A stretch of 64,000 nucleotides of DNA from Arctopsyche grandis. Lineage: Eukaryota > Arthropoda > Insecta > Trichoptera > Hydropsychidae. The notes below the pieces were generated by a model. That model did no database searches and was not told where the DNA came from. It saw only the letters and a program-made list of their open reading frames with translations. The stretch covers positions 30,929,205 through 30,993,204 of the forward strand of contig NC_135361.1 of the NCBI RefSeq assembly GCF_051622035.1. The letters run 5' to 3'. Numbering within the stretch: position 1 is the first letter of the stretch; every line of letters starts with the position of its first letter. Positions 12,345 to 53,275 of the stretch are shown here, in pieces. A program made the translations under genes and the position numbers.

Positions 12345-12930
12345 TTTATACTTCTCACACAATTTTAACTTCTAGGAATTGAGTTTTATTAAATCCCTAC
12401 AAACAAACATTAAAGTGTCACATTGGCTTTCACTGATATCGCATTTTTTTTAAATGAAACTAATAAAAACCTTGTAAAAACCCTACAAATAAACATTAAG
12501 GTATCACTTTAAACGCTGAATGTAAAAATACTAGTATGGAAACCACCTGTGTGTAATAATAAATGATTCATTAAGAGTTCATTGTATACATTAATTTAAC
12601 AAATTAACTATTCGATAGGTTGTTTACCAAACCCAGCCAACCAATGATTACGCTTCCAGTTTGCAGTCCAAAACATCCACAGAATTTATTGAAAAGAGCC
12701 ATCTTCAACTTTCTGAAATCAATTAAACAAAATCATTAGTAAACAAACATCCACTTTCCAATATGTTTGGCATAAGTCATCATTAAAAAACATTAATATT
12801 TTAAAGAAAATTATTGTTTGATTATATTTTATAGCTGCCAACTATGATAAAAGCTTATTTATTATGTAAATCAACACTAATGGCGTATATTTTCATTTTT
12901 CGTTTTACGTTTTCATTTTTGTATTAACTT
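12345..12930 (-). pseudogene. Remnant array unit with tetraspan exon 1 only
   Basis: At 12628-12702 lies a 75-nt exon 1 identical in plan to the other copies (25 residues starting MALFNKFCGCFG, donor GTAAAC intact). Its intron 1 is cut at about 12515, where it joins PLD 3'-flank sequence. The sequence beyond exon 1 is cut at about 12930, where it joins a second copy of the same PLD 3' flank. Exons 2-4 and the PLD gene are gone. The two direct copies of the 3' flank (12365-12515 and 12931-13075) bracket the remnant, which suggests a deletion or gene-conversion scar at the array edge. Confidence 0.7.
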
Positions 12931-13162
12931 CTAGGAATTGAGTTTTATTAAATCCCTACAAACAAACATTAAAGTGTCACATTGGCTTTCACTGATATCG
13001 CATTTTTTTTAAATGTAACTAATAAAAACCTTCTAAAAACCCTACAAAAAAACATTAAGGTATCACTTTAAATTTCACTGATATCGTTGCATATTAAAAT
13101 TAAGTAGTATAGTAATAGCAACGAGATTTAGAAGCATTTACAAAAATTTCAAGACAAACTTG
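12931..13162 (-). other. 3' UTR and polyadenylation region of PLD copy 1
   Basis: On the minus strand, AATAAAA lies about 210 nt after the PLD stop (plus-strand TTTTATT near 12947). The region contains two tandem, diverged copies of a roughly 100-bp stretch with the motifs CCTACAAACAAACATTAA and TTCACTGATATCG. The same arrangement follows every PLD copy in the array. Confidence 0.5.
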
Positions 13163-13858
13163 CTAATAGGGCTGAAATTCCTTGAAAGTCTTCCATAGCT
13201 CATTGAACTCGGACTGAATCAGTTCAACGATGGGCAAATGGGACGTTATCAACACATCTTCCCAATTTCCACAGGTGGCCTGATTAGTCCAATTCAACGA
13301 TCCAGTCACTAATACTCCTCTGCGTTGTAGATTAATTTTATATAAAAAATATTTCACGAATGTCACGTGTGGATTGTTACTATATATTTCTCCAATTCGT
13401 GACGGACTATCGATAATGCAAAATTTGTGATGCATAAGATTTTTGGAGTTTTTGCTTTTAATTTTGATCCCCTGCTCGTAGAAGCGGCAAATGTGGGAGC
13501 TGGTGTAGAAGGCCATGTCGAAGTCGGAGATGATCCTGACGACCACCCCTCGGTCGTGGGCTTTCTTGACGGCCCGAGCCAGAAGATCGGACGTGAAGAT
13601 GTAGACGCAGATGTCGATGCAGATGCGGGCCTCGTCCAGGAAGTCGACGATCCGCTGCAGGTTGTGGACGCAGCAGTACTTGTTGTAGCACTCATCCCTG
13701 ACTATACCCTTCATCTCGCACCGGAAGCCCGAGTCGTTGAAGGCCACCAGCACGTTGACGGGGGCTCGCCGCGCCCCCATCTCAGCCCACTTCCACCACA
13801 CCCCTACCCCGGCCAGCAGGGCTGCGCCCACCACCCCTCCGCCCCACTTGACCCACAT
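13163..13858 (-). CDS. Zucchini/MitoPLD-like phospholipase D nuclease, copy 1 (motif intact)
   Basis: The protein has 231 residues in one exon. In order: an N-terminal hydrophobic helix (about 4-22) that would anchor it to the outer mitochondrial membrane; a Cys/His cluster CYNKYCCVH (57-65) like the zinc-binding insertion of Zucchini; then one PLD half-site with H143-x-K145 and D150, G186-S187-L-N-W and N198-W-E-D. Single-HKD proteins of this type work as homodimers; in the family they act as cardiolipin hydrolase or as the single-strand endonuclease that makes primary piRNAs at the mitochondrial surface (family knowledge). HKD sites normally read HxKx4Dx6G, but here 35 residues separate D150 from G186, an extra 29 residues present in every copy. 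It could be a real insertion or an in-frame intron of 84-90 nt without strong splice sites. GC content is high in the 5' half, unlike its surroundings. The ATG was chosen because the hydrophobic anchor follows directly. Confidence 0.88.
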   Translation of the reverse strand: MWVKWGGGVVGAALLAGVGVWWKWAEMGARRAPVNVLVAFNDSGFRCEMKGIVRDECYNKYCCVHNLQRIVDFLDEARICIDICVYIFTSDLLARAVKKAHDRGVVVRIISDFDMAFYTSSHICRFYEQGIKIKSKNSKNLMHHKFCIIDSPSRIGEIYSNNPHVTFVKYFLYKINLQRRGVLVTGSLNWTNQATCGNWEDVLITSHLPIVELIQSEFNELWKTFKEFQPY

Positions 13859-13994
13859 TCCACGGCACTGTCACCGCACCAGGACTGCCACAGCTTGCTT
13901 CCACTCGCGACGGCCCAAAGGGTGAGGCTGGGGGGCGAGGAGTGGGCGTGTATGTCTGATAAAATCGATAAAGCTTCGTAGGCGGGGTAGGAAG
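13859..13994 (-). promoter_or_regulatory. Proximal upstream region of PLD copy 1 with DRE-like site
   Basis: 136 bp separate the PLD start codon from the end of an LTR. On the minus strand, TATCGATT (13963-13970) differs by one base from the insect DRE/DREF site TATCGATA typical of housekeeping promoters. The same site is present upstream of all four PLD copies, suggesting that the native proximal promoter was retained when the LTR arrived. Confidence 0.4.
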
Positions 13995-14771
13995 TGTTGA
14001 CCGTATCCCAGCCTAACGAAACACTGTTGTGCTTGTTTTAAGTTGTTTTATTGTTTGCCTAAATATTGTACAAGTGTATTAGAATATTTGAGGAAGCTTT
14101 CTCGAAGCGGCTATTGGCTGTTGACTTGGTGTCGTGATGGCCGCTGGATCTGCAATGTGTCGTTGCTCTGGATCCGGCTATGTTCAGATGTCTCTGGATA
14201 TGGCAGTGTGTTGCTGGCTCGGCATTCGGCTATGTTCAGCAGGTCTCTGGATGTCGACTGGTCCGCTGCTGTGTGTCGACTCTTGTTGCTGTGGGTCGAC
14301 TGAAGTTGTTTGGGGTGGACCTCCTTTTATATTGTTTTTGGGGATCCACGTGACTCGTCGCAGGTGGTGTTTATGTGTGCGAGGAATGTGGTTTGTCGAT
14401 TAGGGTGAACGTTTCTCGAATGTTTGGCGTCGTTCCACTCGATTTAGTTTAATGGATGCAGGTGTTCTTCGACTTGAGATGACGTCATTGAGCGTGAGAA
14501 ATGTATTCTCCGTCGCAATAGATTTCGATAGTTTCGATTTGCGGTGACGAGATTCCTACAGCTTTGTCTAGTATACCCTTTAAAATTCAAGTACAAATAC
14601 GTTCCCTTACGGGGTATGGAGCGTAAGGGAATGAAACGACGGGGTGTTGTACACACGATTGTTTATTATGACGGATGAGAAAGAAATCGATCAGTGGCGA
14701 GCAATATGGTGGAGTTGATCCCAGCTCGCAGGCCGATGACCGAAACTCGACCATGTCGTAGAGCCGCTACA
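13995..14771 (-). mobile_element. LTR upstream of PLD copy 1 (fossil, 3' LTR with PPT)
   Basis: Read on the minus strand, a 777-bp LTR starts TGTAGCGGCTC and ends GATACGGTCAACA. It is preceded by a purine-rich tract AGAGGGGAGTAA at its 5' side, as expected for the polypurine tract before a 3' LTR, so a little internal sequence is attached at higher coordinates. A TATA box and initiator lie inside. It is oriented toward the PLD gene, ending 136 bp before its ATG. The superfamily is unresolved, possibly Gypsy from the TGTAGCG start. The insertion predates the array, since all units carry it. Confidence 0.6.
14298..14331 (-). promoter_or_regulatory. LTR core promoter: TATA box and initiator, empty jockey site
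   Basis: On the minus strand TATAAAAGG (14331-14323) is followed by TTCAGTC with its A at 14301, exactly 30 nt from the first T of the TATA box. That is the canonical TATA/Inr geometry of insect promoters. The 13-bp block 14298-14310 is the pre-insertion site of the jockey element seen in units 2 and 3. Transcripts starting here would run toward PLD copy 1. Confidence 0.55.
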
Positions 14772-15181
14772 TTACTCCCCTCTAGGGTTGCCAACTTTTT
14801 TTGTGACGATTCCTGGACAAATAGCTCAAAATTGAACATCATCATCATCATTATCGGTCAGCCATTACCTTGTTTTCAGAGGAAACTTTTTATGTACGAT
14901 AAAATTTTAATTTTAATTTTGTTGGGCCGCCTTTATATCATTACATACGTACTTACGCGGCGCAAGCCTCTAAGTAATATATTTAATTACATTAGTTTAA
15001 GCCGGGGTCATAATTTTGATTGAAATCCTAATCGTGAAATCCCACACATTTTATATATTTATAGATTGTATTGTCGTACATTTGTTATTGAAATATTGTT
15101 TAAATTGCCTTTTTATTTTATTTTATAATTATTTTTTATATATTGTCTTATTTATAATTATTTTTATATTTTTCTTAATAT

Positions 15182-15507
15182 TGTTGCGTAGGAGTGGGTG
15201 GAGGATCCAAGTAAAAGGCCAAAGTCGTTTCACAGCATTTATTAATGATTAAGGAGATACACGCACTGGCAGTGCTCAGTCCAGAATGACCTGATAACAA
15301 CTAAGTACCGCCTTATAAGGGGTAGATCTCTCAGGACTTCTAATCTGTTTACCTATTGTATAGTCACGTATTCGGATATGTATTCCCACGACATTTGGTC
15401 CCACGGTATGGGTCGATTCTGAGAACTGCACGGGAATGTTACCGCTGCTAAGTGCATACGGGGGAGATAATCCTCGAACGGTCACACAGTCTCTGGGATT
15501 CGTAACA
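15182..15507 (-). mobile_element. Solo LTR, unit 1 (fossil)
   Basis: This is a 326-bp LTR with plus-strand ends TGTTGCG and CGTAACA and a 4-bp target duplication ATAT (15178-15181, 15508-15511). On the minus strand it has TATAAGG (near 15320) and AATAAA (near 15240) in the order expected of U3-R-U5. The same LTR in the same position occurs at 28762-29087 and 45355-45680, so it inserted before the units duplicated. It is Gypsy-like by duplication length. Confidence 0.75.
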
Positions 15508-15540
15508 ATATTATTTACCAAACATAGAAGAGGCTAGTTT

Positions 15541-15860
15541 TTAAAAAACTTTTTTTTTACTAGGTTTTTTCTAAAATAAAATTACGCAATCTCTTTTCTG
15601 TAGCATTTGTCCCATGAATATTTATTGGCAAATGATTTGAAACAACTCTAATAATAATGGATATTTGTTTTAGGTGATTCATATCGGTCGTTCAATCAAA
15701 TGCAATTGAAAGATATTTGGAAGCTTTAAATGTCAGGAACTCTTCAGGATCATAACTGATTCAGGATTCACAGATTCACAACACGAAAGCAAAAAAGCGT
15801 CACGAGTCTTCAACAGATCAAAGAAGACCAGTCTGAGAAAATGTTTTAGTCCGGACACTT
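15541..15860 (-). pseudogene. hAT transposase relic, unit 1
   Basis: The minus-strand translation contains TTDMNHLKQISIIIRVV, close to the 'DETTDISxxEQLSIxxRYV' strand around the first catalytic Asp of ZMYM1-type hAT transposases. It is interrupted by stops. In units 2 and 3 the relic extends about 315 bp further; unit 1 lacks that part, with CTTCT microhomology at the junction near 16055. Confidence 0.45.
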
Positions 15861-16410
15861 CACTGGTTTGTTTGATATAAATTATAATTACGATGTTTCA
15901 TTGCATTAATCTTAGGCTACTCGAGTTCACTTATTTATTTTTGCATACACGATATTGACCGAGCAATTATTTTATAAATTTGATCTGATGTTTTGATCTA
16001 TCTTTTAATTTCAGGAATAGGAAAACAAACAACTGTTGGGTTCTTTCGGCCCTTCTCCACCAAGGTCAAATTGAGTATTTTTACATAAAATAAGTTAAAT
16101 CTAAATCTTTGTACAGATACAATATTTGAAAACACTATACACACAAATATTTACATATTCATACAATATCTTGTAAGTTTAGATGTCCAATATATGCGCA
16201 TATGTATGTATATACAATATTGGGCACTATAATTTTGAAGATTTTTTCTTTTATTTAAATTAATTAAGAAGTCGACTTTCCAGCATCCATCCCAGTAAAT
16301 CAAAAATATTCATAACGGACATTGCATATTTAAATATCACTATATTAAGTGATACATATTAAATTCTTATAGTGTTATTGCTATTGTCATGTCGGCATTG
16401 GTATTCATGG

Positions 16411-17305
16411 TTATTCAAAATAAATTTTATTTTCGTATTCACTGTAATCCGGTGGTGGTTTTTCATCTGAAATAGGTGCCGAAGAAATTTCTTGGAGTTC
16501 AGCTCCTTTATTTTGACATTCTAACTTTGACACCTCATTTCTTTGATCTTTTGATAGAAACTAACCACACACAGCCAGAAATACAAGAAAAGTCCTGAAA
16601 TCACAATTTGATAAATAGCTTGAAAACTATTTATACATTATTCTACGATATTTTACACATACCGTCAATCACCATTAAAATGCTTTCAATCACATCTGGG
16701 TAACGAAATGATGAAATAGCTTTTTCCGCCAAATATGCTGCAAATAATAAAATTCCCAAACCAACCGTTAGCAGCCATGGAACCAACATTCGCTTCGTAT
16801 TCTGAAATAAAAAAGAACACAAATTTGAAAAATAGAAAAGAATATCTTAAAATATTACAATAACAATATTTTGTAAAATTGTAATGATAAATTTAATACA
16901 AAACTAAATCAAACCTTGAGAGCTGCATATATGAGTGCTCCCTGTGATAAAAGAGTGAGAATGACAAAGGACAGTTCCCAACTTATTACTAGAATAAATT
17001 GATAATAATCATTAGTTGAATTTACACAATCCAATTGCTTATTTTGATTAACGTATAAAAATAGAAAAAGACAAACCATAGATGTTAACATTAGAATAAA
17101 AATACGAAAACGTAAACGCTGAATGTAAAAATACTAGTATGGAAACCACCTGTGTGTAATAATAAATGATTCATTAAGAGTTCATTGTATACATTAATTT
17201 AAGAAATTAACTATTCGATAGGTTGTTTAACAAACCCAGCCAACCAATGATTACGCTTCCAGTTTGCAGTCCAAAACATCCACAGAATTTATTGAAAAGA
17301 GCCAT
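16411..17305 (-). pseudogene. PPxY tetraspan membrane protein, copy 1 (broken)
   Basis: Exons are at 17231-17305, 16915-17118, 16663-16801 and 16411-16594, matching copy 3 exon for exon. There are two lesions. The exon 1 donor, GTAAAC in the other copies, reads TTAAAC here. Exon 4 is 184 nt instead of 185, with one T missing in the run near 16538, which shifts the frame and brings a stop soon after QKIKE, removing the PPxY tail. Exons 2 and 3 are open. It is a recently inactivated host gene copy. Confidence 0.8.
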
Positions 17306-20174
17306 CTTCTACTTTCTGAAATCAATTAAACAAAATCATTAGTAAACAAACATCCACTTTCCAATATGTTTGGCATAAGTCATCATTAAAAAACATTAAT
17401 ATTTTAAAGAATATTATTGTTTGATTATATTTTATAGCTGCCAACTATGATAAAAGCTTATTTATTATGTAAATCAACACTAATGGCGTATATTTTCATT
17501 TTTCATTTTTGTAAAAATCTGTTATTGGACTCGGATGTTACATATATTATTTATTTACTATTTGTTTTTTTATACAAATCTATGTACATCCTGTCTGTTG
17601 ATTTTTCAATTAATAAAATAAAAAAAAATAAAAATAAAATAAAGCCTTTCATTTTGTATTCCATAGTAGATAATAATTCATTAAAGGGATAAAACATTTA
17701 AATTTTTTAATGTCAAATATTGTCAACGATTTACTAAATACTTTGAAAATTTTGCTCAACAGTGTTTCTTTTTTTATTAATCACTATTTTATATGGTTAT
17801 TGTGTTTTAATAGACAGTGATTAATTTCTGCATAACAGTGATAAGCACTTCCGAAGAGTCGATTTTCATTATATTGACTTCTATGACAGTAAAATGGGCA
17901 CTTTAAATATAGAAATATATATATGTATAATCTGTAGACTCACCACATATGTACATATGTACTTTTATTGAAATACACTAACATAAAAGTTTTTTTTATT
18001 TATTTCTGAGCATAATAAATTAAGTTTATTTCCTATCAACATTGTTAAACAATAAGGTTTATAAACCCAACACAATAATTATAACAACAGTTATCTATTG
18101 TGATCTTGGAATACACTGGAACAGCAATACATACTTTGTTAAAGATATTTTGGCACTGTTAAGTATAAATAATTTTTTTTTCTTATTTTCCACTTTTCAC
18201 ATATATATTTTTCATATTTTTCACAATGATGTTGAATATATATGTATACATGTTTGTTCTGAATCTGATGTAGTATACATGTTTATTTGCCTTGTTAGTC
18301 ATATCCAATGAAGTAACACACTCAATACACTTGTTTACAGAGAAGTGCGCATTCATGAGAAAGGAAAGCGACAAAAATAAATGGAGTATGAATTATTTAT
18401 ATGACTTATTAAAAATAGACCATCCCACAATTACCTTAGCACTAAAATTCTGTGCTAAATATTCAACCAGTATTGTACATTACTGCTTCAATCAAATTCC
18501 ACTCATGCATACCTGAAATTATCTGGCAATTCAGTGAAACTACACCAAATAAACAATAACAGAACAATGTAAACAATGACGAGAAATTGTCGCACTCAAT
18601 ATAATACGCAACTGTACGTATGTTCCGCAACAAGATGACTGATAATATCTAGTGTGTTTCGCTATACCTATAAATACATCTATCGTTTGTCAGAGATTGT
18701 CAAACACGTTTAATTTTGCAGTCCAATTCAGATAAAAAAAGGTTTAGGTATTTGTTTAACACTATGAAAATCCTGTTAAATACACTTATATAATAAATTT
18801 GAATCTCAATACAATTTGATATTGCATTAAAAACGTCTTCATATCAATATATTATATGAAGACACATGAAATTTGTCACTTACTTATTGTTAATTGTTGC
18901 CAAACTGCAAAATTCATAAATAACTCTCTATTTGATATCTTTATGTATTATTTAAAATAATTGAGTAGATTGAAAATCATTCATCAGCTATTGTTTGAGA
19001 ACGAAAAGATTGCCAAATTGAGTTTGATACAATGGTGATTAATACCGAGAAGTTGAGATTGAATTATTGGTTTATTATTGAAATAAATATTGTGTGGTGG
19101 ATTTGAAACTTGTATAAAATGTCGATCAACATTTTCTACAGGGTCATCGTTTGTGCTGTTTATGACATATGCAATCTGTCCATATGATAGCCGATGGTAA
19201 GCTTGCAATTTTCAAAACAAAAACAAGTTGTTCTATGAAAAATTTTCATTTGTATAAATATATAAATTTATCTTATCATTTCAACAGTAAATAAATAGTT
19301 TCCATGGAGATGTTTTCATTTCTTTTCATGAAATTTTCATATATGAGTTCTAATACATAAGTTGAGGCAATTAAAATTGATTATAATAAATACTTAAAAA
19401 GACGCGATTAGTTTTTAAAAATATTTATTATATGTACATTCATATCAACAAAATTCCTTCTACAGCTGTAACATCTGGGACCAGATTTCTGACCCATTAA
19501 ATACAACAAGTGTAATAATACATCCACATGTAACCTCGAAATCTTACAAAATTAATACATAGATTTTTAATGTACAAACGGAATATGTATAACTGATAAA
19601 AAACAATAATGCCAGTTGTATTCATAATCACAGACCTATTGATCTCTAGAATGAATTAATTTCTTAATAAATATATAATCAATGGTTCATTTGATTTGTG
19701 ATTGTATAAACATTTAAAATATTTAATCTCCAATACTAGCATAATAATAATATCAATGAATTATTTTCTATTACTAAGCGAATACTATTGTACATATTAT
19801 TATAATTTTAACGAAATTACTTTTACTACTTTCATGGATGCAAAAGCAATTAAAATTGCGATTTATTTTGGAAAAACACATTTATGAGATTGAGTTACAA
19901 AATTCACCCTAATATGAATCTATCGCCATTATTGAGTAGACCAAACATTCACATATATAGGTTAAAAAAGCAGATACTTATTTGGCCTGCTATTATAGAT
20001 GAAATTTTGAGGTTAAAGATACATTTAAAAATATAAACTTTGTTAGCTCTTGACCAACTTTACTGAGCGACTTGGTCTGGATATATTATAAAATAGGTTT
20101 CATTCAAAATTGCTTACATTCTAAAATAAGAAATATTGAAGCATCACTTATTTTACACCTAAATGCAATATGTA
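17306..20174. other. Unit 1 spacer, gene-free
   Basis: This AT-rich sequence is shared with units 2 and 3. An acceptor-like TTGATTTCAG sits 10 nt before the exon 1 ATG on the minus strand, so a non-coding first exon and promoter of the tetraspan gene may lie somewhere here; I cannot place them. TATAAATA near 18670 is on the plus strand and has no obvious target gene. Short open frames (e.g. 18292-18516) are judged non-coding. Confidence 0.4.
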
Positions 20175-20343
20175 TGTGGTGGAGAATCCCGACAGATGAC
20201 GCTGTTCAGCACCACGATTGGGATGTGGCGGTTTAGGTGAAGACCAAACACGTTTTCAGTCATGTTGTTTATTAAGATGATACGTACGGAGGCTTAGCAA
20301 CCAACCGCGCGGAGCACAGGTCCAACTGCGACTAACCATTACA
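20175..20343 (-). mobile_element. LTR-like end, unit 1 (fossil)
   Basis: This 169-bp block starts TGTAATGG on the minus strand (TGTAACGG in units 2 and 3), contains AATAAA near 20270 and ends CACCACA. In unit 3 it is directly preceded by a purine tract AAAAGGGGTAGAGA, as a 3' LTR would be. Equivalent blocks lie at 37494-37662 and 50937-51105. The family is unresolved. Confidence 0.45.
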
Positions 20344-20770
20344 TCTCTATAACATATTTAATTACATTAGTTTAAGCCGGGATCATAATTTTGATTGAAA
20401 CCCCAATCTTTGAAATCTTTTTGATTGAAACCCCAATCATTGAAATCATTTTGATTGAAATTTTAATCCCACACATTTGTACATTTGTTGTTGAAATATT
20501 GTTTAAATTGCCTTTTTATATTAATAAATTAATTGTATTTAATTTATTATATATTTATTATATTTTAGTACATTATTTGTTTATATACATTTATTTTACT
20601 TGTTTACTTTTTTTTTGTATAGTTTTTTTACTAAAGTTTTTTATATACATTTATTTTTTATATTTTAGTTTATTTTTTTTTTATATACATTTATTTTGTT
20701 ACATGAGTTTTTTTACTAAAGTTTTTTATACATTTACATTTATTATCACACACTTTACACTTCTCACACA
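20344..20770. repeat. Unit-end AT-rich repeat
   Basis: It contains tandem TTTTGATTGAAACCCCAATC-type units (about 20390-20470) and a T-rich stretch with repeated TTATATACATTTATTTT. The first part resembles 14960-15115 of the same unit, so each unit carries this sequence twice. No gene is seen. Confidence 0.5.
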
Positions 20771-21012
20771 ATTTTAACTTCTAGGAATTGAGTTTTATTA
20801 AATCCCTACAAACAAACATGAAAGTTTCACATTGGTTTTCACTGATATCGCATTTTTTTTAAATGTAACTAATAAAAACCTTGTAAAAACCCTACAAACA
20901 AACATTAAGGTATCACTTTAAATTTCACTGATATCGTTGCATATTAAAATTAAGTAGTATAGTAATAGCAACGAGATTTAGAAGCATTTACAAAAATTTC
21001 AAGACAAACTTG

Positions 21013-21708
21013 CTAATAGGGCTGATATTCCTTGAAAGTCTTCCATAGCTCATTGAACTCGGACTGAAACAGTTCAACGATGGGCAAATGGGACGTTATC
21101 AACACATCTTCCCAATTTCCACTGGTGGCCTGATTAGTCCAATTCAACAATCCAGTCACTAATACTCCTCTGCGTTGTAGATTAATTTTATATAAAAAAT
21201 ATTTCACGAATGTCACGTGTGAATTGTTACTATATATTTCTCCAATTCGTGACGGACTATCGATAATGCAAAATGTGTGATGCATAAGATTGTTGGATTT
21301 TTTGCTTTTAATTTTGATCCCCTGCTCGTAGAAGCGGCATATGTGGGAGCTGGTGTAGTAGGCCATGTCGAAGTCGGAGATGATCCTGACGACCACCCCT
21401 CGATCGTGGGCTTTCTTGACGGCCCGAGCCAGAAGATCGGACGTGAAGATGTAGACGCAGATGTCGATGCAGGTGCGGGCCTCGTCCAGGAAGTCGACGA
21501 TCCGCTGCAGGTTGTGGACGCAGCAGTACTTGTTGTAGCACTCATCCCTGACTTTACCCTCCAGCTCGCACTGGAAGCCCGAGTTGTTGAAGGGCACCAG
21601 CACGTTGACGGGGGCTCGCCGCGCCCACATCTCAGCCCACTTCCACCCCACCCCTACCCCGGCCAGCAGGGCTGCGCCCATCACCCCTCCGCCCCACTTG
21701 ACCCACAT
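21013..21708 (-). CDS. Zucchini/MitoPLD-like copy 2, catalytic Lys and motif Ser lost
   Basis: The frame is full-length at 231 residues, with the same anchor helix, Cys/His cluster and 29-residue extra segment as copy 1. The HKD motif reads H-H-T: the codon at 21274-21276 is ACA (Thr145) where copies 1 and 4 have AAA (Lys). The downstream G-S-L-N-W reads G-L-L-N-W (TTG at 21148-21150). The lysine contacts the phosphate in the PLD mechanism (family knowledge), so activity is unlikely. The frame is otherwise open, which fits either very recent loss or a retained non-catalytic role, for example as partner in a mixed dimer (inference). Confidence 0.85.
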   Translation of the reverse strand: MWVKWGGGVMGAALLAGVGVGWKWAEMWARRAPVNVLVPFNNSGFQCELEGKVRDECYNKYCCVHNLQRIVDFLDEARTCIDICVYIFTSDLLARAVKKAHDRGVVVRIISDFDMAYYTSSHICRFYEQGIKIKSKKSNNLMHHTFCIIDSPSRIGEIYSNNSHVTFVKYFLYKINLQRRGVLVTGLLNWTNQATSGNWEDVLITSHLPIVELFQSEFNELWKTFKEYQPY

Positions 21709-22429
21709 TCCACGGCACTGTCACCGCACCAGGACTGCCACAGGTTGCTTCCACTCGCGACGGCCCAAAAGGTGAGGCTGGGGGGCGAGGAGTGGGCGTG
21801 TATGTCTGAGAAAATCGATAAAGCTTTGTAGGCGGGGTAGGAAGTGTTGACCGTATCCCAGCCTAACGAAACACTGTTGTGCTTGTTTTAAGTTGTTATA
21901 TTGTTTGCCTAAATATTGTACAAGTGTATTAGAATATTTGAGGAAGTTTTCTCGAAGCGGCTATTGGTTGTTGACTTGGTGTCGTGATGGCCGCTGGATC
22001 TGCAATGTGTCGTTGCTCTGGATCCGGCTATGTTCAGATGTCTCTGGATATGGCAGTGTGTTGCTGGCTCGGCATTCGGCTATGTTCAGAAGGTCTCTGG
22101 ATGTCGACTGGTCCGCTGCTGTGTGTCGACTCTTGTAGTTGTGGGTCGACTGAAGTTGTTCTTTGTGGCTGCGTTTTAAAGATAATTTATAGGGTAGTGC
22201 CACTCCCTTAACCTATCGTTCGAACGTGTTGTATGGGATCGGACTCTCGGTGATGTTTGTGGTGCGGGCTGGCGGCTGCTCGCTTGTGGGGTGTTTGTCG
22301 ATCTGGAACACTTAGCAAAATTAGTGCATCATCTGTGGGATACTGTCGGGGTTAGTGTGTTAGTGGGTGGTTAACGGGTATGGACCGTTTGGAGGTGGTT
22401 GAGTCTGGTTAATTAAATTGGGTGCTATT

Positions 22430-37662: not shown

Positions 37663-38385
37663 TCTGTACCCCTTTTAGATCATCACATACATACCAAGGC
37701 GGCCCATGCCTCTTAGTAATATATTTAATTACATTAGTTTAAGCCGGGATCATAATTTTGATTGAAACCCCAATCTTTGAAATCTTTTTGATTGAAACCC
37801 CAATCATTGAAATCATTTTGATTGAAATTTTAATCCCACACATTTGTACATTTGTTGTTGAAATATTGTTTAAATTGCCTTTTATATTAATAAATTAATT
37901 GTATTTAATTTATTATATATTTATTTAATTATTTATTATATTTTAGTACATTATTTGTTTATATACATTTATTTTACTTGTTTACTTTTTTTTGTATAGT
38001 TTTTTTACTAAAGTTTTTTATATACATTTATTTTTTATATTTTAGTACATTATTTTTTATATACATTTATTTTGTTACATGAGTTTTTTTACTAAAGTTT
38101 TTTATACATATACATTTATTATCACACACTTTACACTTCTCACACAATTTTAACTTCTAGGAATTGAGTTTTATTAAATCCCTACAAACAAACATGAAAG
38201 TTTCACATTGGTTTTCACTGATATCGCATTTTTTTTAAATGTAACTAATAAAAACCTTGTAAAAACCCTACAAACATCATTAAGGTATCACTAAATTTCA
38301 CTGATATCGTTGCATATTAAAATTAAGTAGTATAGTAATAGCAACGAGATTTAGAAGCATTTACAAAAATTTCAAGACAAACTTG

Positions 38386-42429: not shown

Positions 42430-44138
42430 TTTTTATATTGGTGGGTGAGCATGAGCAGGATGGCATTTATCGAGTCAATGGACTGTTCGATTTTGCTCAT
42501 CCGATTTGAAAGGTCTTGGTTTGGGTTCCAGCTAGTGTTGATGTTGGGTTGTTGGGTGGGAGGGGTTAGAGGAGGGAAATTTGAGTTTTCGTGTCTATAT
42601 TGCGGTACGTTGGTCTTCGTTGGTTGGGGGTGGGAGGGGTTGGGGTTTCGGGGTTGACGGGAGTTCTTCCTGCTTTTGTTGTTGGGATTTGAAGGGCAGC
42701 CTCTGTAGCTGGAAACGTGAGGGCCTCTGCAGCTGGTGCAAGTTGGAGTGGAGGTTGTTGACACACAGTCAGTGGTCAAATGGGGTCCTGCACATTTGAT
42801 GCACAGGGGGGCGACATGGCAGTTGTAGGAGCCGTGACCAAAGCCTTGGCAGCGGTGGCACTGCGGTACAGTGTCACTACGGCGAAGTGATTCGATGCGA
42901 ACCAGTTGGCCGAAGATGCTGGAGAGGTTGAACAACTTCTTCCCCTCTTCGTCGCGTGTGGTCTCGACAGTGAACATGGGCATATCGCGCTTGCCACGTC
43001 GTGATTTCATGACGGTGGCTTTACTGGCTTTGTAGCCAAGACTGGCCAACTCGGCGAGGACTTCTGACTCGGAATAGTTGGGGCTAATGACTCTAATGAC
43101 TAGTTTGAGCGGTTTGTCTTCCGTTAGAGGGTGGGCATAGAATTGAAATTTTTCATCTTGGAGCACTTTGGTGATTTGGCGGTAATCATCGATGGTGCAA
43201 GGTGAGATTTTTACTCTGTTTTCAGAGTAGACGGCTGTGAATTTGTGGTTACGTCAGTCGAGTTTCCTTTGAACTACCTTGTAGTCCGATGGCAACCTTA
43301 GAAAGATTGGAGCAACTTTAGGTTTGGGAAGCACATCCGAAACGGTGTTTCTGGATGGGTGAGCGGGGCTTGTGGTCTGGGGGGGTGTACGAATTTGAGC
43401 TGTGAGAGGGGTTTGGGGCGTGTTTGCCGACGGTGTGCTGAGGGCCGCTTGTTGGGTGGGTGTGTTGTGAATTGGACGCTTCTGGATATGTTTCCGATTT
43501 CGGATGATGCCAACAGGGAAGGAGTAGTCCTCCGGTTGTGGTGCAGGTGTTTGTGTAGGTGCAGGTGTTTGGGTAGGTGTGGGTGATTGTGTAGGTGTGG
43601 GTGGTTGTGTGGGTTCAGGTGCGGCTGCTGATGCGGGTGGGGACTTGGCAGCGGAAGTAACCTCCATTTTGTTAGACTGCACGGAGTCGGAATCGGAGTC
43701 GAAGTCGGATTCCGCGAGTGCCGCGTATCTGTTGCTGATGGGTGGGGGCGACTGTAATTGTGTGTGTGTGGTGTTGAGTGGGCTCGTCATTCTACGCTTA
43801 CCGTTTTTGCGGGGTGACGTCTGGGGGGATGTATCCATGTCCTTTGTCTTTGTGGTCGTTGTCGTCGTCGACTGGGCCTGCGACATGTTTGACGCGAGGT
43901 TTCCCAGTTGGGCGGAGTGGGCTGCTTGGTCAGCTGCTCGTTGGGCTGCGTGAGTCGCGATTAACTTTTTGAGGGAAACGTTTTCTTCCCTCATTTCTTG
44001 GTTCGCCTTCACGAGTTTTTTTATATCGTGTTCCGTGAATTTATGCGTTTTAGCGCTAATGTCACTGCCACCACGGCCATCACGCCGCACACTGGCCATC
44101 TTGTGGGTGGGTTTGTTTGTTTGTTGTGTCACTGTCAC
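42426..44138 (-). pseudogene. Jockey ORF1, unit 3
   Basis: Same domain plan as in unit 2: Pro/Thr/Gln-rich N-terminus, PRE_C2HC-type domain, three CCHC knuckles. It carries a nonsense codon near 43254 (TGA where unit 2 has CGA), at a different site from the unit 2 lesion. The two copies therefore decayed independently after duplication. It also has four extra residues (AAKS) near the middle. Confidence 0.85.
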
Positions 44139-45354
44139 TTGTCACTTGTCACTGTCACTATCACTGTTTTGTTTATTTGGCTGTTGCTAGGACAGCTTCT
44201 CATTCCCAGAGGGACGCGTTCGGAGAGTCGAGCGGTAGTTACATCGCGGTTTCGGCGACGCAGCTGCTAACGGCACAGCTGTTTGTAGCGCGGGTAACGA
44301 CAACGACAGCGCGGCGGGACACGTCCGAGCACTGCGGGCGCTGGGCGCGGTCCTCTGACTGACTCGACTCACTCACTCCGAGTGACTGAAGTTGTTTGGG
44401 GTGGACCTCCTTTTATATTGTTTTTGGGGATCCACGTGACTCGTCGCAGGTGGTGTTTATGTGTGCGAGGAATGTGGTTTGTCGATTAGGGTGGACGTTT
44501 CTCGAATGTTTGGCGTCGTTCCACTCGATTTAGTTTAATGGATGCAGGTGTTCTTCGACTTCGTGTCGTTCTGCTTGGTTTGTTGGGGTGGAATATGCTC
44601 GAATGTTTGGCGTCGTTCCATTCGATTTAGTTTAATGGATGCAGGTGTTCTTCGACTTGAGATGACGTCAATGGTTGAGCGTGAGAAATGTATTCTCCGT
44701 CGCAATAGATTACGATAGTTTCGATTTGCGGTGACGAGATTCCTACAGCTTTGTCTAGTATACCCTTTAAAATTCAAGTACAAATACGTTCCCTTACGGG
44801 GTATGGAGCGTAATGGAATGAAACGACGGGGTGTTGTACACACGACTGTTTATTATGGCGGATGAAAAATAAATCGATCAGTGGCGAGCAATATGGTCGA
44901 GTTGATCCCAGCTCGCAGGCCGATGACCGAAACTCGACCATGTCGTAGAGCGGCTACATTACTCCCCTCTAGAGTTGCCAACTTATTTTGTGATGATTCC
45001 GGGACAAATAGCTCAAAATTGAACATCATCATCATCATTATCGGTCAGCCATTACTTAGTTTTCAGAGGAAACTTTTTATGTACGATAAAATTAAAATTT
45101 TAATTTTGTTGGGCCGCCTTTATATCATTACATACGTACTTACGCGGCCCAAGCCTCTAAGTAATATATTTAATTACATTAGTTTAAGCCGGGGTCATAA
45201 TTAATCGTGAAATCCCACACATTTTATATATTTATAGATTGTATTGTCGTACATTTTTTATTGAAATATTGTTTAAATTGCCTTTTTATTTTATTTTATA
45301 ATTATTTTTTATATATTGTCTTATTTATAATTATTTTTATATTTTTCTTAATAT

Positions 45355-45680
45355 TGTTGCGTAGGAGTGGGTGGAGGATCCAAGTAAAAGGCCAAAGTCG
45401 TTTCACAGCATTTATTAATGATTAAGGAGATACACGCACTGGCAGTGCTCAGTCCAGAATGACCTGATAACAACTAAGTACCGCCTTATAAGGGGTAGAT
45501 CTCTCAGGACGTCTAATCTGTTTACCTATTGTATAGTCATGTATTCGGATATGTATTCCCACGACATTTGGTCCCACGGTATGGGTCAGTTCTGAAAACT
45601 GCACGGGAATGTTATCGCCGCTAGGTGCATACGGGGGAGATAATCCTCGAACGGTCACACAGTCTCTGGGATTCGTAACA
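45355..45680 (-). mobile_element. Solo LTR, unit 3 (fossil)
   Basis: Third copy of the 326-bp LTR, with the same ends and position as in units 1 and 2. Confidence 0.75.
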
Positions 45681-46907
45681 ATATTATATACAAAACATAG
45701 AAAAGGCTAGTTTTTAAAAAACTTTTTTTTTACTAGGTTTTTTCTAAAATAAAATTACGCAATCTCTTTTGTGTAGCATTTGTCCCATGAATATTTATTG
45801 GCAAATGATTTGAAACAACTCTAATAATAATGGATATTTGTTTTAAGTGATTCATATCGGTCGTACAATCAAATGCAATTGAAAGATATTTGGAAGCTTT
45901 AAATGTCAGGAACTCTTCAGGATCATAACTGATTCAGGATTCACAGATTCACAACACAACACAACGCAAAAAAGCTTCACGAGTCTTCAACAGATCAAAG
46001 AAGACAAGTCTGAGAAAATGTTTTAGTCCGGACACTACACTGGTTTGATTGATATAAATTATAATTACGATGTTTCATTGCATTAATCATAGGCTACTCG
46101 AGTTCACTTATTTATTTTTGCATACACGATATTGACCGAGCAATCATTTTATAAATTTGATCTGATGTTTTGATCTCTCTTTTAATTTCAGGAATAGGAA
46201 AACAAACAGCTGTTGGGTTCTTTCGGCCCTTCTGTGTCTCGCGCCTTTGAAAATTGGGATCTCTCCAGAAACATTTGTGTGCATTCTTCAGGGAACCATG
46301 TTAACCTGCCATAGTTGCTGTTTAACTTATTAGATTAGTAAAATCTTTTATTCTTCATGAACCATAAAAATCTCTAGTATCATTTTTTTATTGTGTAGTG
46401 CTTAAAACTTTTTTCGATGAATATTTTAATAAACATTAAATAATGTGTTTATTTTAATTAATTTTGAGTACATATTCAATATTTATAAATATTATACATA
46501 AAAATAAATAAATAAATTATCACAAAATTTTATGAAATCATATAGATATTTCTCCACCAAGGTCAAATTGAGTATTTTTACATAAAATAAGTTAAATCTA
46601 AATCTTTGTACAGATACAATATTTGAAAACACTATACACACAAATATTTACATATTCATACAATATCTTGTAAGTTTAGATGTCCAATATATGCGCATAT
46701 GTATGTATATACAATATTGGGCACTATAATTTTGAAGATTTTTTCTTTTATTTAAATTAATTAAGAAGTCGACTTTCCAGCATCCATCCCAGTAAATCAA
46801 AAATATTCATAACGTACATTGCATATTTAAATATCACTATATTAAGTGATACATATTAAATTCTTATAGTATTATTGCTATTGTCATGTCGGCATTGGTA
46901 TTCATGG

Positions 46908-47803
46908 TTATTCAAAATAAATTTTATTTTCGTATTCACTGTAATCCGGTGGTGGTTTTTCATCTGAAATAGGTGCCGAAGAAATTTCTTGGAGTTCAGC
47001 TCCTTCATTTTGACATTCTAACTTCGACACCTCATTTTCTTTGATCTTTTGATAGAAACTAAACACACACAGCCAGAAATACAAGAAAAGTCCTGAAATC
47101 ACAATTTGATAAATAGCTTGAAAACTTTTTATACATTATTTTACTATATTTTACACATACCGTCAATCACCATTAAAATGCTTTCAATCACATCTGGGTA
47201 ACGAAATGATGAAATAGCTTTTTCTGCCAAATATGCTGCAAATAATAAAATTCCCAAACCAACCGTTAGCAGCCATGGAACCAACATTAACTTCGTATTC
47301 TGAAATAAAAAAGAACGCGAATTTGAAAAATAGAAAAGAATATCTTAAAATATTACAATAACAATATTTTGTAAAATTGTAATGATAAATTTAATACAAA
47401 ATTAAATCAAACCTTGAGAGCTGCATATATGAGTGCTCCCTGTGATAAAAGAGTGAGAATGACAAAGGACAGTTCCCAACTTATTACTAGAATAAATTGA
47501 TAATAATCATTAGTTGAATTTACACAATCCAATTGCTTATTTTGAGTAATGTATAAAAATAGAAAAAGACAAACCATAGATGTAACCATTAGAATAAAAA
47601 TACGAAAACGTAAACGCTGAATGTAAAAATACTAGTATGGAAACCACCTGTGTGTAATAATAAATGATTCATTAAGAGTTCATTGTATACATTAATTTAA
47701 GAAATTAACTATTCGATACGTTGTTTACCAAACCCAGCCAACCAATGATTACGCTTCCAGTTTGCAGTCCAAAACATCCACAGAATTTATTGAAAAGAGC
47801 CAT
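46908..47803 (-). CDS. PPxY tetraspan membrane protein, copy 3 (intact)
   Basis: Four exons, 47729-47803, 47413-47616, 47161-47299 and 46908-47092, join in phases 0, 0 and 1 with GT-AG sites (donors GTAAAC, GTTTGA, GTATGT) to give 200 residues. The start is MALFNKFCGCFGLQTGSVII: a Cys-rich N-terminus and helix 1. Exon 2 holds the second part of helix 1, an extracellular loop with NST glycosylation potential and helix 2; exon 3 holds VPWLLTVGLGILLF helix 3; exon 4 starts with helix 4 (LFLYFWLCVFSFYQ). A 45-residue tail follows with DEKPPPDYSEY, a PPxY motif that binds WW domains such as those of Nedd4-type ubiquitin ligases (family knowledge). The plan resembles the insect DUF4728/pasiflora-like tetraspan group (inference). 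An acceptor-like TTGATTTCAG 10 nt before the ATG implies a non-coding first exon upstream. Confidence 0.88.
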
Positions 47804-48205
47804 CTTCAACTTTCTGAAATCAATTAAACAAAATCACTAGTAAACAAACATCCACTTTCCAATATGTTTGGCATAAGTCATCATTAAAAAACATTAATAT
47901 TTTAAAGAAAATTATTGTTTGATTATATTTTATAATTGCCAACTATGATAAAAGCTTATTTATTATGTAAATCAACACTAATGGCGTATATTTTCATTTT
48001 TCGTTTTACGTTTTCATTTTTGTAAAAATCTGTTATTGGACTCGGATGTTACATATATTATTTATTTACTATTTGTTTTTTTATACATATCTATGTACAT
48101 CCTGTCTGTTGATTTTTCAATTAATAAAATAAAAAAAAAATAAAATAAAATAAAGCCTTTCATTTTGTATTCAATAGTAGATAATAATTTATTAAAGGGA
48201 TAAAA

Positions 48206-48402
48206 TGATTGTAAATGTTTTCCTATTATGCTTTAGATTAACATTAGAATAATATAATACTGTGATTACTAACCAAATTAAATTAAAATTAAAATTGGGA
48301 AATTAGAAAATGATCAGTAGATCAGTAGCTATTAAAATAGATATAAGATGTATTGTGAACATAATTTCGTAATAATAAAAAGCATTTAAAAATCAAAATC
48401 AA
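48206..48402 (+). mobile_element. Retroposed insertion specific to unit 3
   Basis: 197 bp absent from units 1 and 2, flanked by the perfect 15-bp duplication ATTAAAGGGATAAAA (48191-48205 and 48403-48417). The right end is A-rich, with AATAAAAAG shortly before it. This is the signature of LINE-mediated retroposition of a short RNA or a 5'-truncated element. The source is not recognised. Confidence 0.75.
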
Positions 48403-48417
48403 ATTAAAGGGATAAAA

Positions 48418-50936
48418 CATTTAAATTTTTTAATGTCAAATATTGTCAACGATTTACTAAATACATATGATTTGAAAATTTTGCTGAACAGTGTTTCTTT
48501 TCTTATTAATCACTATTTTATATGGTTATTGTGTTTTAATAGACAGTGATTAATTTCTGCATAAGAGTGATAAGCACTTCCGAAGAGTCGATTTTCATTA
48601 TATTGACTTCTATGACAGTAAAATGGGCACTTTAAATATAGAAATATATATGTATAATCTGTAGACTCACTTCATATGTATGTACTTTTATTAGATATTA
48701 TTTTATACACTAACATAAAGGCTTTTTTATTTTTATTTCTGAGCATAATAAATTAAGTTTATTTCCTATCAACATTGTTAAACAATAGCTTTATAAACCC
48801 AACACAATAATTATAACAACAGTTATCTATTGTGATCTTGGAATACACTGGAACAGCAATACATACTTTGTTAAAGATATTTTGGCACTGTTAAGTATAA
48901 ATAATTTTTCTTATTTTCCACTTTTCACATACATATTTTTCATATTTTTTACAATGATGTTGAATATATATGTATACATGTTTGTTCTGAATCTGATGTA
49001 GTATACATGTTTATTTGCCTTGTTAGTCATATCCGTTGAAGTAACACACTCAATACACTTGTTTACAGAGAAGTGCGCATTCATGAGAAAGGAAAGCGAC
49101 AAAAATAAATGGAGTATAAATTATTTATATGACTTATTAAAAATAAACCATCCCACAATTACCTTAGCACTAAAATTCTGTGCTAAATATTCAACCAGTA
49201 TTGTACATCACTGCTTCAATCAAATTCCACTCATGCATACCTGATATTATCTGGCAATTCAGTGAAACTACACCAAATAAACAATAACAGAACAATGTAA
49301 ACAATGACGAGGACTTGTCGCACTCAATATAATACGCAACTGTACGTATGTTCCGCAACAAGACGACTGATAATATCTAATGTGTTTCGCTATACCTATA
49401 AATACATCTATCGTTTGTCAGAGATCGTCAAACTCGTTTAATTTTGCAGTCCAATTCAGATAAAAAAAAGGTTTAGGTATTTGTTTAACACTATGAAAAT
49501 CCTGTTAAATACACTTATATAATAAATTTGAATCTCAATACAATCTGATATTGCATTAAAAACGTCTTCATATCAATATATTATATGAAGACACATGAAA
49601 TTTGTCACTTACTTATTGTTAATTGTTGCCAAACTGCAAAATTCATAAATAACTCTCTATTTGATATGTTTCTGAATTATTTAAAATAATTGAGTAGATT
49701 GAAAATCATTGATCAGCTATAGTTTGAGAACGAAAAGATTGCCAAATTGAGTCTTGATACAATGGTGATTAATACCGAGAAGTTGAGATTGAATTACTGG
49801 TTTATTATTGAAATAAATATTGTGTGGTGGATTTGAAACATGTATAAAATATCGATCAACATTTTCTACAGGGTCATCGTTTGTGCTGTTTATGACATAT
49901 GCAATCTGTCCATATGATAGCCGATGGTAAGCTTACAATTTTCAAAACAAAAACAAGTTGTTCTATGAAAAATGTTCATTTGTATAAATATATAAATTTA
50001 TCTTATCATTTCAACAGTAAATAAATAGTTTCCATGGAGATGTTTTCATTTATTTTCATGAAATTTTCATATATGAGTTCTAATACATAAGTTGACGCAA
50101 TCAAAATTGATTATAATAAATACTTAAAAAGACGCGATTTGTTTTTAAAAATATTTATTATATGTACATTCATATCAACAAAATTCCTTCTACAGCTGTT
50201 ACACCTGGGACCAGATTGCTGACCCATTAAATACCACAAGTGTAATAATACATCCACATGTAACCTCGAAATCTTAGAAAATGAAAACACTGTATAAATC
50301 TTAGAAAATGAATACATAGATTTTTAATGTACAAACGGCATATGTATAACTGATAAAAAACAATAATGCCAGTTGTATTCATAATCACAGACCTATTGAT
50401 CTCTAGAATTAATTAATTTCTTAATAAATATATAATCAATGGTTCATTTGATTTGTGATTGTATAAACATTTAAAATATTTAATCTCCAATACTAGCATA
50501 ATAATAATATCAATGAATTATTTTCTATTACTAAGCGAATACTATTGTACATATAATTATAATTTTAACGAAATTACTCTTACTACTTTCATGGATGCAA
50601 AAGCAATTAAAATTGCGATTTATTTTGGAAAAACACATTTATGAGATTGAGTTACAAAATTCATCCTAATATGAATCTATCGCCATTATTGAGTCGACCA
50701 AACATTCACATATATATGTAGGTTAACAAAGCAGATACTTATTTGACCTGCTATCTATAGATGAAATTTTGAGGTTAAAGATAAATTAAAAAATATAAAC
50801 TTTGTTAGCTCTTGACCAACTTTACTGAGCGACTTGGTCTGGATATATTATAAAATAGGTTTCATTCAAAATTGCTTACATTCTAAAATAAGAAATATTG
50901 AAGCATCACTTATTTTACACCTAAATGCAATATGTA
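48418..50936. other. Unit 3 spacer
   Basis: Homologous to 17690-20174 of unit 1, with the part lost from unit 2 still present (about 48925-49740). A short local duplication (ATAAATCTTAGAAAATGAA) occurs near 50275-50310. No supported gene. Confidence 0.4.
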
Positions 50937-51105
50937 TGTGGTAGAGAATCCCGACAGATGACGCTGTTCAGCACCACTATTGGGATGTGGCGGTTTAGGT
51001 GAAGGCCAAACACGTTTTCAGTCATGTTGTTTATTAAGATGATACGTACGGAGGCTTAGCAACCAACCGCGCGGAGCACAGGTCCAACTGCGACTAACCG
51101 TTACA
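50937..51105 (-). mobile_element. LTR-like end, unit 3 (fossil)
   Basis: Counterpart of 20175-20343, with the clearest purine tract, AAAAGGGGTAGAGA, directly before TGTAACGG on the minus strand. Confidence 0.5.
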
Positions 51106-51829
51106 TCTCTACCCCTTTTAGATCATCACATATATACCAAGGCGGCCCATACCTCTTAGCAATATATTTAATTACATTAGTTTAAGCCGGGATCATAATT
51201 TTGATTGAAATCCCAATCTTTGAAATCTTTTTGATTGAAACCCCAATCATTGAAATCATTTTGATTGAAATTTTAATCCCACACATTTGTACATTTGTTG
51301 TTGAAATATTGTTTAAATTGCCTTTTTATATTAATAAATTAATTGTATTTAATTTATTATATATTTATTTAATTATTTATTATATTTTAGTACATTATTT
51401 GTTTATATACATTTATTTTACTTGTTTACTTTTTTTTATATAGTTTTTTTACTAAAGTTTTTTATATACATTTATTTTTTATATTTTAGTACATTATTTT
51501 TTATATACATTTATTTTGTTACATGAGTTTTTTTACTGAAGTTTTTTATACATATACATTTATTATCACTCACATTACACTTCTCACACAATTTTAACTT
51601 CTAGGAATTGAGTTTTATTAAATCCCTACAAACAAACATTAAAGTGTCACATTGGCTTTCACTGATATCGCATTTTTTTTAAATGTAACTAATAAAAACC
51701 TTGTAAAAACCCTACAAACATCATTAAGGTATCACTAAATTTCACTGATATCGTTGCATATTAAAATTAAGTAGTATAGTAATAGCAACGAGATTTAGAA
51801 GCATTTACAAAAATTTCAAGACAAACTTG

Positions 51830-52525
51830 CTAATAGGGCTGAAATTCCTTGAAAGTCTTCCATAGCTCATTGAACTCGGACTGAAACAGTTCAACGATGG
51901 GCAAATGGGACGTTATCAACACATGTTCCCAATTTCCACTGGTGGCCTGATTAGTCCAATTCAACGATCCAGTCATTAATACTCCTCTGTGTTGTAGATT
52001 AGTTTTATATAAAAAATATTTCACGAATGTCACGTGTGAATTGTTACTATTTATTTCTCCAATTCGTGAAGGACTATCGATAATGCAAAATTTGTGATGC
52101 ATAAGATTGTTGGATTTTTTGCTTTTAACTTTGATCCCCTGTTTGTAGAAGTAGGATATGCGGGAGCCGTTGTTGAAGGCCATGTCGAAGTCGGAGATGA
52201 TCCTGACGACCACCCCTCGGTCGTGGGCTCTCTTGACGGCCCGAGCCAGAAGTTCGGACGTAAAGATGTAGACGCAGATGTCGATGCAGGTGCGGGCCTC
52301 GTCCAGGAAGTCGACGATCCGCTGCAGGTTGTGGACGCAGCAGTACTTGTTGTAGCACTCATCCCTGACTATACCCTTCAGCTCGCACCGGAAGCGCGAG
52401 TCGTTGAAGGCCACCAGCACGTTGACGGGGGCTCGCCGCGCCCCCATCTCAGCCCACTTCCACCACACCCCTACCCCGGCCAGCAGGGCTGCGCCCACCA
52501 CCCCTCCGCCCCACATGACCCACAT
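51830..52525 (-). CDS. Zucchini/MitoPLD-like copy 4 (HKD intact, diverged)
   Basis: 231 residues in one exon. It keeps HHK (AAA at 52091-52093), Asp150 and GSLNW, so catalysis is plausible. Differences include NGSRISYFYKQGIKVKSK before the motif, where copies 1-3 have TSSHICRFYEQG, and NWEH instead of NWED after it. It has the same 29-residue extra segment as the others. It lies at the right end of the array, without the tetraspan gene of its own unit. Upstream, about 45 bp (52560-52605) not found in the other copies separate it from the DRE-like site. Confidence 0.87.
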   Translation of the reverse strand: MWVMWGGGVVGAALLAGVGVWWKWAEMGARRAPVNVLVAFNDSRFRCELKGIVRDECYNKYCCVHNLQRIVDFLDEARTCIDICVYIFTSELLARAVKRAHDRGVVVRIISDFDMAFNNGSRISYFYKQGIKVKSKKSNNLMHHKFCIIDSPSRIGEINSNNSHVTFVKYFLYKTNLQHRGVLMTGSLNWTNQATSGNWEHVLITSHLPIVELFQSEFNELWKTFKEFQPY

Positions 52526-52693
52526 TCCACGGCACTGTCAACGCACCAGGACTGCCACAGGCATGACTCGCAATTGCGCTCTTTGTCCTGCCTGTCCGCT
52601 TCCGGGGTTGCTTCCACTCGCGACGGCTCAAAGGGTGAGGCTGGGGGGCGAGGGGGTGGGCGTGTATGTCTGATAAAATCGATAAAGCTTTGT

Positions 52694-52896
52694 CTAGTAT
52701 ACTTTTTAAAATTCAAGTCCAAATACGTTCCCTTACGGGGTATGGAGCGTAAGGGAATGAAACGACGGGGTGTTGTACACACGAAAGTTTATTATGACAG
52801 CTGAAAAAGAAATCGATCAGTGGCGAGCAATATGGTCGAGTTGATCCCAGCTCGCAGGCCGATGACCGAAACTCGACCATGTCGTAGAGCCGCTAC
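52694..52896 (-). mobile_element. LTR remnant upstream of PLD copy 4 (fossil)
   Basis: Only the 5' part of the LTR (TGTAGCGG start on the minus strand, purine tract beside it) remains. The rest, including the TATA/initiator region, is missing; the junction near 52686 shows the 8-bp microhomology AGCTTTGT. PLD copy 4 therefore lacks the LTR promoter present in unit 1. Confidence 0.6.
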
Positions 52897-53275
52897 ATTA
52901 CTCCCCTCTAGGGTTGCCAACTTTTTTTGTGACGATTCCGGGACAAATAGCTCAAAATTGAACATCATCATCATCATTATCGGTCAGCCATTACCTAGTT
53001 TTTAGAGGAAACTTTTTATGTGTGATAAAATTGAGGGCCGAGATATAAAGGGCCGCCTTTATATCATTACATACGTACTTACGCGGCCCAAGCCTCTAAG
53101 TAATATATTTAATTACATTAGATTAAGCCGAGGTCATAATTTTGATTGAAATCCAAATCATTGAAATCACTGAAATCCAAATCATTGAAATCCCACACAT
53201 TTTATATATTTATAGATTATGTATATTGTCGTACATTTGTTATTGAAATATTGTTTAAATTGCCTTTTTATTTTA

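Follow-up and report, generated by a model that had tools for sequence, protein, structure and literature searches.

The 64,000-nucleotide stretch of the Arctopsyche grandis genome analyzed here (NC_135361.1, positions 30,929,205 to 30,993,204, hereafter the window) contains a tandem array of four single-exon PLD genes (A, B, C and D), all on the minus strand and carried by units in one orientation. LINEs, hAT fragments and the DUF4728 family give the window a eukaryotic, insect-like character. Judged from its sequence, the locus is a local tandem segmental duplication of a single-exon Zucchini/MitoPLD-like gene together with a DUF4728 tetraspan gene. Zucchini (Zuc) is a core, conserved nuclease that cuts RNA into transposon-silencing piRNAs. 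In the explanation that we favor, and consider reasonably probable, nuclease activity persists in D and perhaps A, and B and C have lost it and are under little constraint.

Each PLD open reading frame comprises 235 codons from stop to stop (A, 13163-13870; B, 21013-21720; C, 38386-39093; D, 51830-52537; all on the minus strand) and 231 from the ATG (13163..13858, 21013..21708, 38386..39081 and 51830..52525, respectively), with the whole domain in one frame. Self-comparison delimited unit A at 12329..20349, unit B at 20345..37710, unit C at 37710..51111 and unit D at 51117..53282. Units A, B and C each hold a PLD gene and a DUF4728-like tetraspan gene situated 5' of it on the minus strand, whereas unit D lacks the tetraspan gene and consists of the PLD cassette only, flanked by direct repeats of ~225 bp (51117-51343 and 53058-53282). 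The main unit-versus-unit matches in the self-comparison were ~89-99% identical, the longest covering 7.1 kb at 97.8% (B-C), and the copies differ by ~1-7%, depending on the pair and the part compared. The PLDc_2 matches in all of the reading frames, combined with the 89-99% identity of units in the same orientation, mean that a four-unit array is not explicable by chance. Direct repeats of ~190-225 bp flank the PLD genes of B, C and D, the left repeat being 70-80% like the right one, and the PLD gene of A has the right-hand repeat and no left one; the repeats are a plausible, albeit unproven, substrate for recombination. A tRNA scan found no tRNA.

The array contains three full-length tetraspan genes, two of them with lesions, and one fragment with exon 1 at 12628-12702. 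The copy in unit A (TA, 16414..17305, minus strand) has an exon-1 splice donor changed from GT to TT and, compared with the copies in B and C (TB and TC), has lost 1 nt from the last exon; this deletion falls in an A run and could be a sequencing error. TB (30314..31206, minus strand) carries a stop in the LVPWLL exon, where the tryptophan codon has become a stop codon, and TC (46911..47803, minus strand) shows no lesion private to itself. Exon 2 of all three copies has an awkward frame, which may be an older, shared lesion. Two diverged tetraspan relatives lie to the right of the array (54073-54953, and exons at 59990-63437), indicating that the predicted tetraspan family forms a broader cluster in this region that extends beyond the array. 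The PF15860 cut-off of 26.7 bits was exceeded by four joined exon sets, consisting of two alternative TC joins, one gene at 54 kb and one at 60-63 kb (31.3, 31.5, 33.0 and 37.3 bits), and two single TA exons gave no match. The preliminary description of this stretch, which had listed four PLD copies and three to four tetraspan copies recurring in the same order and strand, is borne out for the former by the reading frames, the PLDc_2 matches and the self-comparison, and for the latter by the three full-length genes and the exon-1 fragment, with the two further relatives outside the array.

The four PLD proteins are most similar to Zuc among known structures. Pfam PLDc_2 matched one domain in each copy (E 9.5e-29 to 6.2e-24), and the best PDB match was in every case Drosophila Zuc, represented by 4gel for D (E 1.9e-35) and A (E 8e-32), and by 4gem for B (E 3.4e-32) and C (E 5.2e-33). 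For each copy, eight chains were retrieved at E <=0.001, the top four being Drosophila Zuc and the following pair MitoPLD, ahead of NucT and Nuc; no further PLD type was present among those eight chains, drawn from a structure library that may not span other PLD types. Bacterial NucT matched the four copies far more weakly than Zuc (E 3.9e-8 to 1.6e-5), and the NCBIfam NucT models scored D at 53.5 bits against a cut-off of 297. Over 162 aligned residues, C shares 61 with Drosophila Zuc, and A and B share 60 each, with D being the closest. The closest solved structures thus support a Zucchini/MitoPLD-like identity of the four predicted proteins. C47, C57, C62, C63 and H65 are identical in all four copies; C57 and C62 align with cysteines of Drosophila Zuc, C63 and H65 do not, and C47 lies outside the printed alignment. 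Zinc-finger cysteines and a histidine near the start of the domain are a feature of Zucchini/MitoPLD. Another such feature is a membrane anchor at the N-terminus; the best 19-residue hydropathy window is N-terminal in D only (1.67), and is located at residue 79 in A, B and C (1.64, 1.36 and 1.36, respectively). An AlphaFold model of D, based on a four-row alignment, had a mean pLDDT of 43.7 and was too poor for use. Pattern matching in viral and prokaryote contigs gave 11 and 61 matches, respectively, none of which was confirmed as a PLD relative. An antisense frame across each PLD gene (in C, open for 152 codons inside the CDS) was considered as a second gene and set aside, as a by-product of the GC-rich 5' half was thought more likely, even though comparison with synonymous shuffles argues against chance (P 0.01).

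The catalytic motif is defined as H-x-K-x4-D (PMC8421150). A and D carry this motif as HHKFCIID, and A also has an intact GSLNW motif. B and C instead read HHTFCIID, with the HKD lysine (Lys145) replaced by threonine (codons 21274-21276 in B and 38647-38649 in C), and B additionally has Ser187 replaced by leucine (codon 21148-21150), which turns GSLNW into GLLNW. According to a table in PMC8004604, the structure 4GEM is the K171A mutant of Drosophila Zuc, and B and C match this chain slightly better than the wild type. With the HKD lysine replaced, B and C are filed here as putative Zuc-derived paralogs rather than as Zuc nucleases. The preliminary description was right in placing the PLD genes close to Zucchini/MitoPLD, as the best solved matches are Drosophila Zuc and MitoPLD, but its picture of an amplified piRNA-biogenesis nuclease would make all four copies nucleases and does not hold for the two that lack the catalytic lysine. 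This loss in B and C is the main point that the description missed.

Conservation outside the motif separates D from the other copies. Fourteen positions at which A, B and C share one residue and D has another could be aligned to a solved relative; D agrees with Drosophila Zuc or 9lkx_K at six of these positions, A/B/C at none, and neither at eight. From these matches, the stem of A/B/C seems to have lost conserved residues, and D, in which the family residues are best kept, is probably the most functional copy. One later change in B/C, F117Y, goes in the opposite direction, toward the Drosophila residue, and counts against the favored explanation.

Insertions allow the duplications to be ordered, as had been proposed beforehand for what was called a transposon-dense region, and both statements agree with the several LINE and hAT pieces, the TSDs and the empty sites in A. 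A LINE upstream of the PLD gene occupies the same site, with the same 13-bp TSD (GACTGAAGTTGTT), in unit B (22161..27776, minus strand, endonuclease and RT pieces) and unit C (39534..44383, minus strand, endonuclease and PRE_C2HC pieces), and the site is empty in A. Similarly, a 316-bp insertion with the TSD TTCT is common to B (29637..29952) and C (46234-46549), the empty site in A being near 16053. Other insertions are private to one unit. In B, the shared LINE contains a hAT-transposase fragment (~23149-24252) that is absent at that place in C, and a second LINE (32606..36034, minus strand) lies in a segment replacing the equivalent of A 18213-19008. Unit C has an insertion of ~180 bp (48222..48402) flanked by direct copies of TTAAAGGGATAAAA, and in unit A the tetraspan exon-1 region recurs as a 414-bp copy (12510..12923, minus strand). 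A 583-bp segment upstream of the PLD gene, flanked by AGCTT, is found in A (13977..14559) and, split by the LINE, in B and C, and is absent from D; it may have been either gained in A/B/C or lost in D. In the noncoding flanks of the PLD genes, B and C differ at 12/891 sites, A differs from B at 27/906 and from C at 26/889, and D differs from A, B and C at 41/903, 46/903 and 45/889 sites, respectively. The shared and private insertions, several of them with TSDs, and the noncoding divergence all point to the same predicted order, in which D split first, then A, and finally B from C.

The copies would thus have arisen stepwise (D versus A/B/C, A versus B/C, and B versus C), with exchange between them. 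C and D differ at only 7/778 sites to the left of D position 51976, compared to 73/1210 to the right of it. Their near-identity covers the 3' part, and the best breakpoint, D 51976, falls inside the PLD gene (0 of 1000 permutations were as extreme). This breakpoint within the 3' end of the PLD gene is the observed part of the exchange scenario, and suggests that copies swapped sequence or that a duplication joined parts of different age. The mode of an exchange would probably have been unequal crossing-over or gene conversion.

By homology, D and possibly A would act as the usual homodimeric single-strand RNA endonuclease, anchored on the outer mitochondrial membrane, and make piRNA precursors. 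B and C are predicted to lack such chemistry unless partnered, since threonine takes the place of the HKD lysine at the position engineered in K171A. With open frames that show little or no amino-acid constraint, B and C are most probably inactive or decaying copies, or auxiliary ones at best. Any protein that they express would either be without effect or poison dimers, and a dominant-negative regulatory role is possible, although unproven.

The substitution pattern of the PLD frames does not point in a single direction. The changes on the tree comprise 37 nonsynonymous and 5 synonymous ones, and the 42 variable sites are distributed as 19, 15 and 8 over codon positions 1, 2 and 3, with 11 touching a CpG in at least one copy. 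When changes were simulated from the noncoding spectrum, 10.9 out of 42 were expected to be synonymous (P 0.02 for no more than 5). The GY model yielded an omega of 2.62 (lnL -1196.12 versus -1198.53 at omega 1, the latter taken with the best of nine scanned kappas; 2 delta lnL 4.8, 1 df). All four frames are open, with 0 stops observed where ~2.3 were expected from the noncoding spectrum (P of none 0.09), and the PLD CDS have 0 indels against 4.4 expected (the probability of finding none is 0.013, or 0.055 when two thirds are taken to be frame-shifting), an expectation based on a ratio of 19 indels to 183 substitutions in noncoding sequence, counted over five A-B/A-C alignments sharing copy A. 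The absence of stops and indels in all four frames hints at retained selection, and pure relaxation does not predict an omega above 1; both observations count against the favored explanation. So does the internal contrast with the neighboring genes, where lesions in two of the three tetraspan copies stand against none in the four PLD frames, which speaks against unconstrained PLD genes. On the other hand, pN in every pair except B-C (3.1-5.5%) nearly equals the noncoding divergence of those pairs (2.9-5.1%), which argues for little or no amino-acid constraint. The variable sites are also clumped, with 11 of the 42 falling within 36 nt (P 0.0015), and the synonymous deficit weakens to P = 0.046 when nine changes of codons 117-128 are left out. 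The clumping, together with the exchange between copies, weakens the claim of positive selection, as tests that assume independence are too optimistic. Strong positive selection was set aside as the main reading for this clumping and for a pN near the noncoding divergence; we take the data to reflect a weak amino-acid constraint, with a hint of frame maintenance, and positive selection is not proven.

The same data bear on a reading in which B and C are functional pseudo-enzymes that form dimers on mitochondria with the active D or A and damp or retune the cutting of piRNA precursors, the array diversifying under positive selection in an arms race with transposons. Zuc requires homodimerization, and the regulation of dimer assembly has been put forward as a key step (PMC10474768); the open frames, the shortage of synonymous changes and the high omega would be in keeping with such a role. 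Nevertheless, the pseudo-enzyme reading is considered unlikely given the clustered changes and the match between pN and noncoding divergence, and because the loss in A/B/C of family residues that D keeps resembles relaxation. The specific proposal that the K-to-T paralogs B and C are natural dead heterodimer partners that tune piRNA output, with amino acids diversifying above the neutral rate, is regarded as quite unlikely.

For most of their extent, B and C differ by only ~1-2%, which is within the heterozygosity of some insects. In principle, the assembler could have joined two haplotypes of one locus, making B and C (or a larger part of the array) a false duplication, but we find this quite unlikely, as the private insertions differ between B and C. 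Furthermore, A is ~3% from B/C and D up to ~7% in parts, with distinct insertion states, which makes at least three copies hard to explain away. It is also quite unlikely that the whole array goes back to a retrocopy of a zucchini gene that has introns and lies elsewhere, the four copies being dispensable. Such an origin would agree with the uninterrupted frame of the domain in all four copies and with the direct repeats flanking the cassette. In addition, disruption of zucchini in Bombyx is reported to give no obvious phenotype (PMC9962485), so the gene is not necessarily essential in every insect. However, neither a poly-A tract nor a retrocopy TSD was seen by eye in the flanks of copy A, and the catalytic and family residues are kept in D.

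Multiple Zuc-like genes in an insect are not new. Rhodnius prolixus has two putative Zuc orthologs (PMC6179187) and shares with A. grandis the possession of more than one Zuc-like gene, with no tandem array or catalytic loss mentioned in the available part of that text. In Aedes aegypti, the Zuc function was assigned to one PLDc_2 protein, and knocking down two further ones was without effect (PMC8421150). The earlier view of the gene as usually single-copy in insects is only roughly right, agreeing with the one functional Zuc of Aedes and less well with the pair in Rhodnius. Among the open-licence PMC matches listed, none reported tandem zucchini arrays or catalytically dead paralogs in its title or the start of its abstract, and such cases may be in print elsewhere. 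The array offers a natural series of copies in one transposon-rich locus (probably active, possibly active, dead and doubly altered), all with open frames, and would allow a test of inactive partners controlling dimer formation and piRNA output versus tolerated spare copies.

Compared to known proteins, the tetraspan neighbors resemble the DUF4728 membrane proteins (Pfam PF15860; 31.3 versus 26.7 bits for a TC exon join), which are unrelated to PLD. The bacterial Nuc and NucT belong to the same PLD nuclease family and share the HKD motif, and are matched weakly by D (E 1.2e-6 and 3.9e-8, respectively). Mouse MitoPLD/PLD6 (PDB 4GGJ and 4GGK) and 9lkx_K are the next-best solved matches of every copy, at lower scores, and the segment separating the HKD and GSxNW motifs is missing from 9lkx_K. 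Drosophila melanogaster Zuc (PDB 4GEL, 4GEN and 4H4A, and the mutant 4GEM) likewise has one PLD domain with one HKD and a GSxNW motif, and is 40% identical to D (65/162 aligned residues). Unlike the Drosophila protein, the A. grandis copies have approximately nine more residues separating the HKD motif from GSxNW and occur as four genes in tandem, and in B and C the lysine has been replaced naturally at the very site that was mutated in 4GEM.

The four tandem copies of the single-exon Zucchini/MitoPLD-like PLD gene on the minus strand (A to D) all carry a sharp step in base composition within the gene (13163-13870 in A). When the gene is divided into sixths, the three at the 5' end have a GC content of 57-72% and the three at the 3' end one of 30-45%. 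On the plus strand, an antisense open frame of at least 192 codons also covers the 5' part of each copy (13403-13981 in A, 21253-21831 in B, 38626-39204 in C and 52070-52804 in D). Inside the coding sequence of C, the antisense open stretch exceeds the length usual in synonymous shuffles (P 0.01). Upstream of PLD D, differences private to this copy are densely clustered at 53022-53049. The cluster points to sequence exchange with a further copy, unseen and more diverged, to misalignment or to a rearrangement at this site.

Units A, B and C share a solo-LTR-like block, ~97% alike, between the PLD gene and the DUF4728-like tetraspan gene (15180-15530, 28760-29110 and 45353-45702, respectively). 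Read by eye on the minus strand of the copy in A, it has the sequence TGTTACG...CGCAACA. In the second LINE of unit B, which is private to that unit, the ORF directly upstream of the RT ORF (35330-36034, minus strand) encodes a Baculo_FP_2nd domain (1.9e-18).

To the left of the array, the plus strand at 738-6046 encodes a large protein that combines ankyrin repeats and an NB-ARC domain. It has an open frame of 1549 codons (1397-6046), and a second, upstream frame of 249 codons (738-1487) overlaps this one out of register, as would result from a sequence error, a frameshift or the presence of an intron. The gene contains internal 198-bp DNA repeats, with matches of 92%. To the right, two additional, diverged DUF4728 genes lie on the minus strand, one at 54073-54953 and another that we infer at 59990-63437 from exons ~2.8 kb apart, and which may extend past the window. 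Diverged repeats are common to the left (9872-10736) and right (60287-62504) flanks of the array and are probably transposon remains. One matches at 91% across 183 bp, and another, in inverted orientation, at 73% across 476 bp.
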